Part shown: piece by piece, positions 21,391 through 26,835 of the stretch
Numbering within the stretch: position 1 is the stretch's first letter
How the letters are laid out: every line of letters starts with the position of its first letter
NCBI GenBank assembly: GCA_022750205.1
Contig: JAKIWD010000003.1
Location: forward strand, 1-41,598
Length of the DNA stretch: 41,598 nucleotides
Source: Thermoplasmata archaeon
Lineage (GTDB): Archaea > Thermoplasmatota > Thermoplasmata > Lutacidiplasmatales > UBA184
Reading direction: 5' to 3'
Program-made: the position numbers and the translations under genes
Notes under the pieces: model-generated
What the model saw: only the letters and a program-made list of their open reading frames with translations
Database searches by the model: none
Told to the model about the DNA's origin: nothing

Positions 21391-21435
21391 GCCCCACCGG
21401 TGTGGGCGCGCGAGACACAATCCGCGGACAGTTCC

Positions 21436-22869
21436 ATGTGCGCATTTCGATACGAGCGACGTCCGATCCCCGAGGAGAACCGGGAGGAGCGCGTCGAGGG
21501 GTTCGGCGAGATCCTCCACAGCTACACGCCCGAGGAAGCGGTGCTCGAGGCCCAGCGGTGCCTGCAATGCGCCATGCCATTCTGCGTGCAAGCCTGTCCG
21601 ATCACGCAGGATTGTCGGGGGTACCTCTTGGCGGTCGCCCAAGGGGATTTTGACGGGGCCGCCCGGATCACGTTGATGGACAACCCGCTCGCGACGGTCC
21701 TGTGCAAGACCTGCTATCACTACTGCGAGGAGGACTGCGTGATGGGCGGGAAGGGAGTGCCCATCGCAATCCGACATATCAAGCGGGCCGCGCTCGAGTT
21801 CGGGAAATCGGATACGCTCTACGTTCCAAGCACGCCCCGCCACGAACGGATCGCCATCATCGGCGGCGGTCCCACCGGCATCCAGGCGATGTGGGAACTG
21901 TGCCTCCGGGGGTACGCCGTCACCCTGTTCGAGGCCGAACCCTTCCTGGGGGGGCAGGTCGAGACGATCCCCAAGTACCACCTCGCCGGCAACGAGCTCG
22001 ACCTTGACCTCGCCCGGTTCAAGGACCTGGACTGCACCGTCGTGACGGGAAAGAAGGCGGGCGTCGACTTCACCCCCGAGACACTGATCGCCGAGGGGTA
22101 CCTGGCGGTCCTCGTCGCCATCGGCGCCTCGGACCCGCGCGCTCTCGGCATTCCCGGAGAGCACTTGCCCGGCGTCTTCACCGCCCTTCAATTCCTCCTG
22201 GCGATGAACAAGGGCCCCGACGTGCTCCTCGGACGCCAGGGGCGGCGCGTGGTGGTCGTGGGGGGTGGGGATGTCGCGCTCGACGCGGCCCGCTCCTGCG
22301 TACGCTTGCCGGAGGTGGCCGGGGTGACCGTCGTGTACCGCAGGGGCCGCACCGACATGCCGGCCGGGGACGAGGAGGTCGAAGGGGGCGAGATCGAGGG
22401 GGCGACGTTCCTCTTCCAACGAAACCCCGTCCGGATCCTCGGGACCGCTCGGGTCGAGGGGATGGTCGTCCAGACGATGCAACCCGGTCCTCCGGACGCG
22501 ACCGGGCGACCGACGCAGGTCCCCGTGCCGGGATCGGAGACCACGCTCGACTGCGACACGATCGTGATCGCCGCCGGGGAGACCGCGGAGATCGCCGCGC
22601 TCCCCAAGGAACTCGACTTCAACCTCTCCTCCCACCCGTGGCCTCAGGGGAAGAAGGAGGATTGGATGACCGACGTCGAAGGGGTGTTCGCCGGCGGCGG
22701 AAAGTCCGTGGTCTACGCCATGGGCGCCGGAACGCGGGTAGCGATCGCCATCGATGCGTTCATCGCCCGAAAGAAGGGACGTAGCCCCACCCCGCGACCG
22801 AATCCGCTCGGGGGGCCGGACGCGCCGAAGCTCCCCGCCGGGTACGGCGGACCGACCTGGCACCTCTGA
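21436..22869 (+). CDS. GltD/SudA-family NAD(P)-dependent iron-sulfur flavoprotein
   Basis: A 477-residue protein of the glutamate-synthase small-subunit family. The N-terminal domain carries two [4Fe-4S] cysteine sets: C42-x2-C45-x4-C50-x3-C54, and C90-x2-C93-x3-C97-x3-C101. An FAD-binding Rossmann motif GGGPTG is at 143-148, an NAD(P)-binding motif GGGDVALDAARS lies near 275, and the closing FAD segment is VFAGGGKSV. Such proteins move electrons from NAD(P)H to a partner: the GltB large subunit in glutamate synthesis, a ferredoxin:NADP oxidoreductase partner, or another reductase. No large-subunit gene is adjacent, so the reaction is left open. The protein could also act alone, as some archaeal homologues do. 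ATG 21436 was chosen since it follows the promoter and begins at the family's usual N-terminus. Confidence 0.88.
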   Translation: MCAFRYERRPIPEENREERVEGFGEILHSYTPEEAVLEAQRCLQCAMPFCVQACPITQDCRGYLLAVAQGDFDGAARITLMDNPLATVLCKTCYHYCEEDCVMGGKGVPIAIRHIKRAALEFGKSDTLYVPSTPRHERIAIIGGGPTGIQAMWELCLRGYAVTLFEAEPFLGGQVETIPKYHLAGNELDLDLARFKDLDCTVVTGKKAGVDFTPETLIAEGYLAVLVAIGASDPRALGIPGEHLPGVFTALQFLLAMNKGPDVLLGRQGRRVVVVGGGDVALDAARSCVRLPEVAGVTVVYRRGRTDMPAGDEEVEGGEIEGATFLFQRNPVRILGTARVEGMVVQTMQPGPPDATGRPTQVPVPGSETTLDCDTIVIAAGETAEIAALPKELDFNLSSHPWPQGKKEDWMTDVEGVFAGGGKSVVYAMGAGTRVAIAIDAFIARKKGRSPTPRPNPLGGPDAPKLPAGYGGPTWHL

Positions 22870-22918: not shown

Positions 22919-23311
22919 TCACTTCGAGAAGTGGCGAACGAGGGCCTTCCAGTAGTACTCCTTCCAACCCTCGCTGATGCTCGCGAACGACGAGGCCGGA
23001 ATTCCGTACTGGGCGAATTCGATCCGCGTCCCCTTCCCGGCCTTGGTCAACTTGAAACGCGCGATCGAGTAGTGCCGCTCGGGCCAGGAATCCGCCCGCC
23101 ACGCCCAGACGATCTCCTTGGGCTTGTGATGCGCGAGGATGAACCCCTCCAGACTCCCGTCGTACATCGAGAAGGGCGCCCCTGGTTTCTTGCCGATCTT
23201 CGCCGAGCCGCCGCTGAACGCCGCGTGCTCGCCGGCGTTGACGAGCGCGTGGTAGACCGCGCTGGGGGCCGCCGGGATCGTTGCGTGCTGGCTGAGGTTC
23301 TTGACCTTCAT
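22919..23311 (-). CDS. AHSA1-like SRPBCC protein
   Basis: A 130-residue protein of the activator-of-Hsp90-ATPase-homologue (AHSA1) branch of the SRPBCC fold. It shows the N-terminal strand followed by PAAPSAVYHALVNAGEHAAFSGG, the central GAPFSMYDGSLEGFILA, the strand KEIVWAWRADSWP, and GTRIEFAQYGIP before a long C-terminal helix ending WKEYYWKALVRHF. The family binds hydrophobic ligands; the role here is unknown. ATG 23311 is used because the homologous part starts there; the open frame extends 32 codons upstream. A TATA-like CTATGTAG lies about 42 bp before it. It converges on the GltD-like gene with a 49 bp gap. Confidence 0.85.
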   Translation of the reverse strand: MKVKNLSQHATIPAAPSAVYHALVNAGEHAAFSGGSAKIGKKPGAPFSMYDGSLEGFILAHHKPKEIVWAWRADSWPERHYSIARFKLTKAGKGTRIEFAQYGIPASSFASISEGWKEYYWKALVRHFSK

Positions 23312-23610
23312 CGTCAGGATGGCTCCTCGCCCGAGGGGAGGCCGCAACGCTACATAGGGGGTTCTGACGCGGCTCGGAGCGGGGGACGCCCGCGGACAGG
23401 GCGGCATTCGGATGGCGCAGTGTGGTTCTCCGGTCGGTGGCGGGCCACGCGCTTCGAAGAAATAGGTCGTAGACCTCGTGGCTCGGTCGACGGAACTCGG
23501 TCTGGGCTGAACTCGGAACGACGGGCCAAGTGACGTGGTGGGGGTCCGCCCACCCTCGCTATGGCGACGGAGTTCGATACGGGGAGTGCTGGCGCTGGCC
23601 GCCGAAACAC
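23312..23610. other. Intergenic region without a supported gene
   Basis: About 300 bp between the AHSA1-like gene and the end of the esterase gene. It contains the probable promoter of the former (23351-23358). Short open frames run through it, but none has a recognisable product, and no hairpin or repeat stands out. Confidence 0.5.
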
Positions 23611-25101
23611 CTAGCGTGCGAAGAGGGAGCGGAACCAGCTCCCGATCTCATCGAGCGCTTCCCAGCCCTCGTCGACGAGGCCCCGATAATCGATGAAGCC
23701 ATGCGGCATGCCCGGGTATCGGGTGGCGCGGACCGGAACCAAGGCATCGTGCAGCCGTCGCGCGTACGCCTCCCCCTCGTCGCGCAATAGGTCGTACTGG
23801 GCGGTGATGACCAGCGCCGGGGGAAGTCCGGAGAGTTCCGTGGCGTTGAGCGGGGCGACACGGGGGTCCTTCCCCTCCTCGGCGTTCGTGAGGTATTGCT
23901 CCCACATCCACGGCATGAACGCCGTCTCGAAGCCGTACCCTTTCGCATTCTCGGTGTACGATTCCGTGAGGGGCATGTAAGCCGTGATCGGGCAGATCAA
24001 TACCTGGCCGGCGATCTTCGGTCCGTTGCGTTCGCGGGCCAGCAGGCAGACCACCGCGGCCATGTTCCCCCCGGCGCTATCTCCGGCGACCGCGACCCGG
24101 GCCGGATCGGTCCCGAGGCGAGCGGACACCGCCTCCTCAGAGAGCCAACGGACGGCCGCGAAACAGTCCTCGACCGCCGTCGGGAACTTGTGCTCGGGCG
24201 CCCGGCGGTATCCGACGGATGCGACCACGCATTGGGAGCGGTTGGCGATCTCCCGGCAGACGGTATCGTGCGTGTCGAGGTCGCCGAACACCCACCCGCC
24301 CCCGTGGAAGTAGGCGATGACCGGGAACGGCGACTCCCCGTCCTTGGGGGTGTAGACGCGGACCGGGACTCGGTGGCCCGACGGCCCGAAGCTCGTGGTC
24401 TTGAGCTGAGAGACCGCGGGGGCCGTACCAATGTACCCATCGGTTTCCCGCGACATCTGGCGCGCGATCTTTCGACCCTCTTCCGGTGACAGCGAAGTGA
24501 GGTCGGGGTAGGTCCCGGCCTCGTGCTCGAGCTGGGCCCGGATCTCGGGGTGGAACTCGGCCGATCGCGGCGGGGTCGGCGGCAACGGAGCGGCCTCCGG
24601 AGGCGGCAACTCCGCGGGCGGCTGGGCGCTCTCGTCCGTGGGAATGAGGTCGGCGAACGCGGGAGCCGGTGGGTCTTCGTGATCGGCGGCGGTCTCGATC
24701 GCCTCCGAGGGCGCTACTGCCTCGATCGGTTCGGGTGGGGGGGTGGAGAGGACCTCGACCGGCGGTTCAGGGGTCGCGAGGGCGGGCATGTCCGGCGGCG
24801 GGGCAACGGAGACCGGAAGCGCCTCGAAACGGCGTAGACGACCTTCGGGGGTGAAGGCGACCGCGAAACGGAACGATGCCCCCGCGTGCTGCGCCTCTCC
24901 GGTGCGGCCCCACCGATTGCCGTCGACACGTACCGCGTCGAGGTTCGGCCACGCGGTCCGTCGGCCGATCTCCTCGAGGAGCAGGACCCACTCCTGGGCG
25001 CAGAGCTTGCAGCAGAAGTAGGTCGACCGGCCCTGGACCTCCTGCCACCAGTCACCCCAGGTCGACCCGCAGAGCGGGCAGCCCTCAGGCGGGGGGTCCA
25101 T
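23611..25101 (-). CDS. Fusion of a Ta0938-type zinc domain with an HSL-family esterase
   Basis: A 496-residue two-part protein. Residues 1-100 resemble the Ta0938 domain of Thermoplasma: CPLCGSTWGDWW with C8 and C11, then YFCCKLCAQEW with C30, C31 and C34, which should form a zinc site, and a small beta sheet ending RRFEALPV. A Pro/Glu/Ala-rich linker of about 80 residues follows. The rest (about 185-496) is a complete alpha/beta hydrolase of the hormone-sensitive-lipase type: oxyanion motif HGGGW at 266-270, nucleophile S342 in GDSAGG, acid D437 and catalytic H467 in PHGFIDY. Such enzymes hydrolyse short or medium acyl esters in the cytoplasm. I infer that the zinc domain targets or regulates the esterase. 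ATG 25101 has GGAG a few bases upstream and lies 17 bp inside the end of the preceding gene, so it is the last gene of a three-gene operon. Confidence 0.88.
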   Translation of the reverse strand: MDPPPEGCPLCGSTWGDWWQEVQGRSTYFCCKLCAQEWVLLLEEIGRRTAWPNLDAVRVDGNRWGRTGEAQHAGASFRFAVAFTPEGRLRRFEALPVSVAPPPDMPALATPEPPVEVLSTPPPEPIEAVAPSEAIETAADHEDPPAPAFADLIPTDESAQPPAELPPPEAAPLPPTPPRSAEFHPEIRAQLEHEAGTYPDLTSLSPEEGRKIARQMSRETDGYIGTAPAVSQLKTTSFGPSGHRVPVRVYTPKDGESPFPVIAYFHGGGWVFGDLDTHDTVCREIANRSQCVVASVGYRRAPEHKFPTAVEDCFAAVRWLSEEAVSARLGTDPARVAVAGDSAGGNMAAVVCLLARERNGPKIAGQVLICPITAYMPLTESYTENAKGYGFETAFMPWMWEQYLTNAEEGKDPRVAPLNATELSGLPPALVITAQYDLLRDEGEAYARRLHDALVPVRATRYPGMPHGFIDYRGLVDEGWEALDEIGSWFRSLFAR

Positions 25102-25987
25102 ACATCTCCGCACGCTCCAGGCGTGCCCCGAGGTAATCGTCGAACAGGTCGATCGATCGGAGGAACACGCTCTGGACGTCCTCTACGAGGTTGAGCGCCT
25201 GCGCGTGGCGCTCGACAAGGGCCAATGCAGCGTCGGCATGACCCAGGTCGACCTCGTAGCCTTCCCGCAGGAACGCCTTGGTTTCGGGCGAGATCGCCAT
25301 CCCATCGAGGATGGCCGGATCAAAGTAGTGCACCGTCGCTCCGGCCGGAAGGAGGTTGCGGTGGGCGATCAGCTCCAGCGAGTGCATCGCGGCCATCGCC
25401 GAGACCCAGTGCTCCTGCTCGCAGATCCGGTGCCACTCCTTGAGCACGCGCTCGGTGGTCGGCAGGCCCGGAGTCGCCAGGATGATCGCGCGGGAAAGTC
25501 CGACGCTCTCCCCCATCCGCAGCAGGAGCTCGTAGTGCGACGGCAGTCCGGGTCCCCTTCCGCCGAACTCGGTGTCGATGTTGTCGATCTCGTAGAGCAC
25601 GACGTCGGGCTGGCCCGACCGCGCGAGAATGAAGGCGCAGCAACGGACCCACTGGCGCAGAAAGTGCTGGTGCTCGACCGCGTACCCCAACAACACAGAC
25701 CGCTCGGGATGTTGTAACGCGACCACGAACGGGTGGGGTCGCTCGCCGAAAAAACGCCGAATGAACCTCCGCTTGATCCAGTGGGCGAGCCCCTCCGGTG
25801 GGAGCAGAAAGATATCGCGCAGCTGCTCCGTCAGCGTATCACGCTCGACACGTCGAAGGGAAATCGATTGGTTCAGCCAGCGGACGTGGCTCGGTTCGCT
25901 CTGCGATGCCTGGTCGAGCAGATGCGTCGCGAGCGCGGGGAAGTCTCCGACGGGGAACCCCTGGAGACACACCGGGCACTTCGTCAC
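25085..25987 (-). CDS. Heme-oxygenase-fold (TenA/PqqC/CADD-like) protein with N-terminal zinc finger
   Basis: A 300-residue protein. The N-terminus has a short zinc-finger-like unit (C4-x2-C7 and H22 in FPALATHL). The rest is helical and resembles the heme-oxygenase-like diiron protein superfamily: EHQHFLRQWVRCC, E140 in DTEFGG with H151 in SHYELLLRMGESVGL, E205 in HSLELI, and D247/H250 in YEVDLGH. In diiron members the last motif is H-x3-D-x2-H; here the first His is Gly243, so one metal ligand seems to be missing or supplied elsewhere. Members oxidise fatty acids, amino acids or cofactors, or have lost metal binding altogether. The substrate is unknown. It lies 12 bp after a 71-residue gene and overlaps the esterase fusion by 17 bp. 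Confidence 0.75.
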   Translation of the reverse strand: MTKCPVCLQGFPVGDFPALATHLLDQASQSEPSHVRWLNQSISLRRVERDTLTEQLRDIFLLPPEGLAHWIKRRFIRRFFGERPHPFVVALQHPERSVLLGYAVEHQHFLRQWVRCCAFILARSGQPDVVLYEIDNIDTEFGGRGPGLPSHYELLLRMGESVGLSRAIILATPGLPTTERVLKEWHRICEQEHWVSAMAAMHSLELIAHRNLLPAGATVHYFDPAILDGMAISPETKAFLREGYEVDLGHADAALALVERHAQALNLVEDVQSVFLRSIDLFDDYLGARLERAEMYGPPA

Positions 25988-25999
25988 TCGACCCTCATC

Positions 26000-26215
26000 C
26001 TAGAACGGAAACTCCGCCGGGAGCCGCTCTCGAAGTTGTCGGTACTCCGGATCGTCGCCGTGCCGGGTCCTCAGGTCGAGTAGGAACTCGCGGACCTGGG
26101 CCGCAGTCAGCTTCCGGTAGCCTCCGACCATCTCGATCGTGCCCTCGAAGTCCGAGTGGCATGCCTCGAAGCAATTGCCCATTCCGGTCAGCAGCTCGCG
26201 CTCTCGGGGGGTCAC
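26000..26215 (-). CDS. Unknown 71-residue protein, first gene of the esterase operon
   Basis: A small acidic/basic helical protein. It has the segment NCFEACHSDFEGTIEMVGGY in its N-terminal half, with two Cys and one His close together, then a helix-turn-helix-like stretch LTAAQVREFLLDLRTRHG and a C-terminus DPEYRQLRERLPAEFPF. I do not recognise the family. GTG 26215 is preferred over the longer open frame because a clear TATA element (GATATAGG) is centred 26 bp upstream, making the GTG the first codon of a leaderless message. It is 12 bp from the heme-oxygenase-fold gene, so it should act with it: a partner, regulator or peptide substrate are all possible. Confidence 0.68.
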   Translation of the reverse strand: MTPRERELLTGMGNCFEACHSDFEGTIEMVGGYRKLTAAQVREFLLDLRTRHGDDPEYRQLRERLPAEFPF

Positions 26216-26236: not shown

Positions 26237-26244
26237 CCTATATC
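26237..26244 (-). promoter_or_regulatory. TATA box of the three-gene esterase operon
   Basis: GATATAGG on the minus strand, centred 26 bp before the GTG at 26215. This fixes the probable first codon of the operon. Confidence 0.5.
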
Positions 26245-26301: not shown

Positions 26302-26835
26302 TCACGAAAGCGGCGCCCCACCGGGGGGAGGGTAGACGGCGACGAGAGAGGTCGTGAACTCAACCATCGTCGACCCCTGTGGGTTGGCTGACGTGAAGGC
26401 GACGTACCAGGTCCCCGCCGGGACCGTGAGCTCGATCCCCCCGCTGTCCACGGGCCCGACGGACCAGAGGGAGCCGGGGGCCGATTGATCGGTCTCCAGG
26501 GACTCGAAGGCCGCCGGGGTCAGCAGGTAGGCGGTCACCGGGGCATTCGACATGAACGTCCCGCTCACCGAGGCGCCCATGGCCAGTCCGAACACCACGT
26601 CGTTGAAGGCCCCGGAATCGATGTTGAGGTTGGTCCCGCTCGGCACGAGGACCTGGGCGCGGGAAGTCGTGAGATTGGAGGGTAGGGATGGTTGGCTGAC
26701 GAGCGGCGTCCCGAACGCTTGGGGATGGGAGGTCGGAAACGCGTAGTCCACGACCACCAGCACCAGGAGCAGCCCTGCGGCGATGCTCACGACCAGGAGC
26801 GGAAGGTTGCCGCGACCCGAGGGTCGGCGATGCAC
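26302..26835 (-). CDS. Small membrane-anchored extracellular protein (paralogue A)
   Basis: A 177-residue protein. A short basic start is followed by one transmembrane helix (about 11-30, LPLLVVSIAAGLLLVLVVVDYAF). The rest is a beta-rich outer domain: VLVPSGTNLNIDSGAF, a central VSGTFMSNAPVTAYLLTPAAFESL and the closing LTVPAGTWYVAFTSANPQG. The last two segments correspond closely to parts of the protein at 32091-32615, so the two are paralogues. The domain probably faces outward. The function is unknown. Start is GTG 26835, and the element GAAATAG is centred about 24 bp upstream. Confidence 0.75.
   Translation of the reverse strand: MHRRPSGRGNLPLLVVSIAAGLLLVLVVVDYAFPTSHPQAFGTPLVSQPSLPSNLTTSRAQVLVPSGTNLNIDSGAFNDVVFGLAMGASVSGTFMSNAPVTAYLLTPAAFESLETDQSAPGSLWSVGPVDSGGIELTVPAGTWYVAFTSANPQGSTMVEFTTSLVAVYPPPGGAPLS

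Follow-up and report, generated by a model that had tools for sequence, protein, structure and literature searches.

An archaeal gene pair encoding an HDO-like zinc-finger protein and a five-cysteine Ta0938 partner, fused once to an esterase

Ta0939 and Ta0938 of Thermoplasma acidophilum carry adjacent locus tags, and in 2007 the pair was listed, without a function, as common mainly to Thermoplasmata and Sulfolobus (PMC1852104). Both families are represented by solved structures: SSO2700 of Sulfolobus solfataricus (PDB 4lqx) for the first, and Ta0938 itself (PDB 2fqh), a single-domain protein, for the second. In the literature on Ta0938, Ta0939, SSO2700, 4LQX and 2FQH we found this gene list and a remark on the fold, and no functional study. 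The fold of the first family is also that of PqqC and TenA and of the heme-oxygenase-like dimetal oxidases (HDOs), such as CADD, UndA, HrmI and BesC. A 2026 review of the HDOs refers to bacterial species and does not mention archaea (PMC13108848).

The window, a stretch of 41,598 nucleotides, makes up contig C7 in the 2.24-Mb assembly of an archaeal genome. It harbors the same two families side by side, within three consecutive minus-strand open reading frames encoding proteins of 71, 300 and 496 residues. Gene 1 (26215-26000, GTG start) is separated by 12 bp from gene 2 (25987-25085, GTG start), which overlaps gene 3 (25101-23611, ATG start) by 17 bp; genes 2 and 3 constitute the Ta0939-Ta0938 pair. 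A TATA box (ATATA, 26239..26243, minus strand) is located at positions -28 to -24 relative to the GTG of gene 1. This box is conserved: at columns -28 to -25 of 15 orthologous promoters the AT content is 0.87-1.00 against a background of 0.30, and a related locus, L058, has it at the identical position. Since it sits about 28 nt from the start codon, a leaderless transcript is implied. Inspection of the open reading frames and of the 15 promoters confirms the coordinates, the 12-bp gap, the 17-bp overlap and the TATA box given in a sequence-only reading of this DNA; the joint action of the genes which that reading expected is supported by the recurring gene order. The three genes form a real operon. 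Their arrangement is not due to chance, because dozens of genomes show the same gene order and the fusion carried by gene 3 is found in a second genome.

On the strand of the operon, about 90 bp upstream of gene 1, lies a 177-aa open reading frame (26305-26835) with an N-terminal hydrophobic segment and without a Pfam family. An 873-aa thermopsin (PF05317; 27564-30185) with a C-terminal PEGA domain is divergent from the operon. Downstream are an AHSA1/SRPBCC protein (22919-23407) and a glutamate-synthase-small-subunit-like flavin oxidoreductase with Fer4_20 and Pyr_redox_2 domains (21400-22869).

Across 80 loci of named archaeal genomes, the Ta0938 gene directly follows the gene-2 homologue in 77, usually with an overlap. 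Two of the remaining three loci stop at a contig edge, and only one, L130, is truly devoid of Ta0938. Homologues scattered without a conserved neighbourhood, the outcome which the sequence-only reading had set against its own proposal, were looked for and not found. Furthermore, Ta0938 exceeds the cut-off in 21 of 293 genomes from the phylum, and every one of these also encodes a gene-2 oxidase-type protein. The unit of biological relevance is this pair of orphan proteins, conserved among archaea, which extends beyond the fusion and predates it. Gene 1 is found upstream of the pair in 35 of the 80 loci, and was not found in the Sulfolobales loci among them. In the gene-2 tree the sequences accompanied by gene 1 form one clade (support 95/89) comprising Heimdallarchaeota, Nitrososphaerota, Bathyarchaeota and the genus of the window; in 78 genomes of this genus, gene 1 is present in exactly the 14 which have Ta0938. 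The trio initially described as a unit keeps its gene order, but the core is the oxidase-Ta0938 pair and the 71-aa gene is limited to one clade.

Clustering of the flanking open reading frames across loci revealed, beyond the trio, no gene common to the whole family, and the recurrent neighbours name no pathway. In ten Thermoplasmata loci (e.g. L109:7191-8907), open reading frames resembling T-protein, PdxT and GlyA, named by eye, lie immediately beyond the Ta0938 gene on the other strand. A pathway built on these neighbours was considered and rejected as too local, being confined to one group of genomes. In genome G050 (C3; L016/L056) internal deletions through gene 2 and the Ta0938 gene leave one in-frame open reading frame; gene 1 persists upstream of this deleted operon, but its first invariant cysteine, Cys15, is lost. 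A heme-copper oxidase gene is present in 18 of the 21 Ta0938 genomes versus 116 of the 272 others, the three exceptions belonging to one genus; this enrichment fits the use of O2 and is inflated or confounded by phylogenetic relatedness.

Gene 2 combines a zinc finger with an HDO-like domain. The zinc finger (zf-C2H2_9, PF16293, E=2.5e-12; 25808..25984, minus strand) is built on C4, C7, H22 and H34, all invariant in 45/45 sequences. The second domain (25121..25768, minus strand), supported by profile alignment to CADD (1rcw/8va9) and by conservation, matches TENA_THI-4 (PF03070, E=2.5e-24) and, with a lower score, PF14518. Compared with 4lqx, gene 2 gives a phmmer E of 6e-84. In Foldseek, its predicted model (pLDDT 96.1) retrieves 4lqx (E=2.8e-24, 45% identity) and then PqqC, CADD, TenA, HrmI and BesC; the matches to CADD, HrmI and BesC are at E <= 1e-3. 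The domain matches and the predicted model thus support a heme-oxygenase fold, and the zinc-finger protein of this fold which had been recognised from the letters alone is borne out by PF16293, PF03070 and Foldseek.

When the profile is aligned to CADD, E140, H151, E205, D247 and H250 fall on five of the six positions which we take, with their numbering, to be the CADD metal ligands. The sixth, a histidine of the H-x3-D-x2-H motif aligned to CADD His174, corresponds to G243, and glycine occupies this position in 44 of 45 sequences. The HDO site comprises three histidines and three carboxylates (3H/3C), and natural ligand losses from this helix have been noted (PMC13108848). Because a ligand histidine is replaced by glycine and the 3H/3C set is incomplete, the gene-2 family is best described as HDO-like and not as canonical HDO. 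E105, H106 and H202 are further invariant residues.

The five putative ligands track Ta0938. All five are kept in the 44/44 rows of alignment A3 which are paired with Ta0938, and the sole exception in this alignment is L130, the copy without Ta0938. The prediction arising from L130 was tested on four more homologues that have no Ta0938 gene beside them (L141:2677-3585, L142:2864-3766, L143:2828-3727 and L144:2977-3879). These degenerate paralogues have lost ligands in 4/4 cases and kept the zinc-finger residues in 4/4, which brings to five the ligand-less copies that retain the zinc finger without a nearby Ta0938 gene. The Fisher p of 5e-7 for ligand loss versus Ta0938 absence overstates the case, because the five copies are not five independent events and probably reflect two losses (four of them form one group). 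The converse is observed in a divergent pair from one archaeal family (L040:638-1788, L041:759-1800), where the five ligands and Ta0938 are kept and a complete zinc finger is missing. Loss of ligands without Ta0938 while the zinc finger is kept, together with this converse, points to Ta0938 as a partner which would serve the metal site and not the zinc finger. A different small open reading frame follows the paralogue in L142 (L142:2599-2880, 17-bp overlap) and in L144 (L144:2670-2927, 49 bp on); neither has a Pfam family, and both perhaps encode a replacement partner.

Gene 3 is composed of three segments, all on the minus strand. The Ta0938 domain (residues 6-93, 24823..25086) matches PF11494 with E=1.4e-23 (83.5 bits, gathering score 27) and 2fqh with a phmmer E of 5e-17. 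A linker with 30% Pro (residues 97-185, 24547..24813) connects it to the HSL-family esterase domain (23614..24546; PF07859, E=8e-78), which reaches 358.9 bits with the LipP1 model NF058653 (cut-off 350) and displays HGGGW at 266, GDSAG and the catalytic S342, D437 and H467. The architecture first read from the translation, a Ta0938 zinc domain followed by a Pro-rich linker and a complete HSL esterase, is confirmed by the two Pfam matches and the motif positions. Within the Ta0938 domain, C8, C11, C30, C31 and C34 form a TRASH-like pattern invariant in 91 sequences. Two of five Ta0938 proteins match TRASH/YHS (PF24273) at E values of 2.5e-4 and 4e-4, below the cut-off, and a 79-aa protein (L042:1387-1626, genome G330) matches TRASH (PF24273) above the cut-off and Ta0938 just below it. 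This dual match suggests that Ta0938 may descend from TRASH-type domains. Open reading frames of permease, ThiF/MoeB and CutA type, assigned by eye, are located near the 79-aa gene.

Another genome of the same genus, G387 (L044), carries the same fusion in a 523-aa open reading frame; identity between the two proteins is 65% for the Ta0938 domain, falls to 36% along the linker and is 57% for the esterase. An assembly artefact was considered and rejected, since a second genome has the fusion too, there with a linker that has diverged. The fused open reading frame of L058 has the same length as that of G387 and probably belongs to the same genome. The window and L058 are sisters in the gene-2 tree (100/98), so that one fusion event suffices. 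Only 2 of 92 distinct Ta0938 domains continue into a long C-terminal segment, of 401 and 429 residues, and none of the others extends by more than 16 residues, which agrees with the rarity claimed by the sequence-only reading; an ordinary, widespread esterase architecture was not found. The fusion of the esterase to Ta0938 is real and represents one rare event.

The 71-aa protein is invariant at C15-x3-C19, M12, F23, R34, P66 and F69 in a 35-row alignment. Two cysteines and a histidine had been highlighted in it; both cysteines (15 and 19) are invariant in this alignment, whereas the neighbouring histidine is not. The predicted model is all-helical, with a four-helix fold (pLDDT 93.7). Its comparison with the PDB yields nothing at E <= 0.001 (best E 0.66), the weak matches being HTH-like folds with E above 0.6; a Pfam search over the 35 members returns scattered weak matches only and no known family. 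As a peptide substrate the protein is disfavoured by its conservation over the full length and its high-confidence predicted fold. The earlier suggestion that it carries or presents a substrate is likewise unlikely as an essential role, because the protein is confined to a single clade and its predicted structure is folded and helical. The protein is an accessory within that clade, whose members come from several archaeal phyla.

Our preferred reading, to which we give slightly better than even chances, is that the core of the locus is a two-protein, O2- and metal-dependent oxidase system with a TRASH-like partner supplying metal or electrons, to which an esterase was fused once. Gene order, fusion, conserved residues, fold and the association of Ta0938 with the ligand set are observed; that the system binds metal and uses O2, which way transfer runs, what the substrate is and how the esterase contributes are inferred, as follows. 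The Ta0939/SSO2700-type protein would act as an O2-dependent oxidase or oxygenase with a heme-oxygenase fold, and E140, H151, E205, D247 and H250 would hold one or two non-heme metal ions. Ta0938, the five-cysteine partner, may load or keep the metal, or pass electrons; translational coupling would yield both proteins together. The zinc finger would have a separate role, for example in contacting a substrate or a partner. The small helical CxxxC protein would join as an accessory in one clade, and in the lineage of the window the single fusion of Ta0938 to an HSL esterase would probably set a hydrolysis step beside the oxidase. The two-protein system is widespread in oxygen-using archaea.

Several observations weigh against an oxidase. 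With glycine at the sixth ligand position in 44 of 45 sequences the standard 3H/3C diiron site is incomplete and the metal is putative, PF03070 ranks above PF14518, the enrichment in aerobes is confounded by phylogeny, and Ta0938 could be a purely structural zinc protein. Gene 2 could instead be a metal-independent enzyme of TenA or PqqC type, involved in thiamin salvage or cofactor oxidation, with Ta0938 as its structural zinc subunit; PF03070 is the top Pfam match and PqqC the best fold match after 4lqx. We consider this unlikely, as no thiaminase II or PqqC model of NCBIfam matches gene 2 at E <= 1, where TIGR04305 is the only match, and as the CADD-type ligands are kept and are lost only in copies without Ta0938. 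The retention of the zinc finger even in ligand-less copies would also suit a regulatory complex with the HDO-like fold as its sensor domain, where metal sensing or nucleic-acid binding would fall to the zinc finger together with the TRASH-like Ta0938. Archaeal metal sensors include proteins with TRASH domains, and HTH-like folds are among the weak matches of the 71-aa model. However, the E values of these matches exceed 0.6, the divergent L040/L041 pair does without a complete zinc finger and the active-site-type residues are strongly conserved, which makes regulation distinctly improbable. By profile, the closest characterised dimetal oxidases are the CADD/4-aminobenzoate synthases, yet a self-sacrificing p-aminobenzoate synthase of CADD type deserves hardly any credence. 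It was rejected because the sacrificial residues are missing: 45/45 sequences have V, I or M at position 88, which aligns with CADD Tyr27, and no lysine is conserved near 209-217 (CADD Lys152). In addition, TIGR04305 scores 15.7 bits against a cut-off of 200, and the genus includes members with distinct CADD-like genes in which the H-x3-D-x2-H motif is complete (L017-L019).

The esterase may also be independent of the pathway and its fusion fortuitous, which is compatible with any of these functions for the pair. We rate this just short of an even chance, and as almost as likely as a fusion signalling an ester substrate or product. It agrees with the single event behind the two fused domains, and also with two further genomes of the genus in which esterase relatives stand alone, encoded on contigs separate from the operon. 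Against it, the catalytic residues are intact although the Ta0938 and esterase domains have diverged to 65% and 57% identity, and the four genomes of the genus which have this esterase all carry the operon (two trivially, one in decayed form). The fusion is a hint, short of proof, that an ester substrate or product may be involved. As the esterase is an add-on of one lineage, the idea that it releases or trims the product, put forward in the sequence-only reading, remains speculation. Going further than the oxidase system, a new archaeal class of heme-oxygenase-fold metalloenzymes can be envisaged, with an altered 2H/3C site, dependence on a dedicated TRASH-like partner for metal or electrons, a CxxxC accessory in one clade and a tethered esterase that processes the product; we regard this full picture as tentative and rather doubtful.

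Relative to T. acidophilum, where Ta0938 stands alone, the window presents it fused to an esterase and the pair preceded by the 71-aa gene. The esterase domain resembles the LipP1 hormone-sensitive lipases (NF058653) and differs from them in being placed behind a Ta0938 domain. PqqC and TenA share the fold and PF03070 with gene 2, which differs by its kept metal-ligand set. With CADD, UndA, HrmI and BesC, gene 2 shares the fold and five of the six ligand positions; it is unlike them in the glycine at the sixth ligand histidine, the extra zinc finger and the TRASH-like partner gene. Two solved but functionless archaeal families, 4lqx/SSO2700 and 2fqh/Ta0938, appear here as one conserved, translationally coupled unit, and since the Ta0938 gene travels with the putative ligand set, two orphan structures become one testable enzyme system. 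If the oxidase reading is true, an archaeal branch with altered ligands and a dedicated partner would extend the HDO superfamily, so far described from bacteria.
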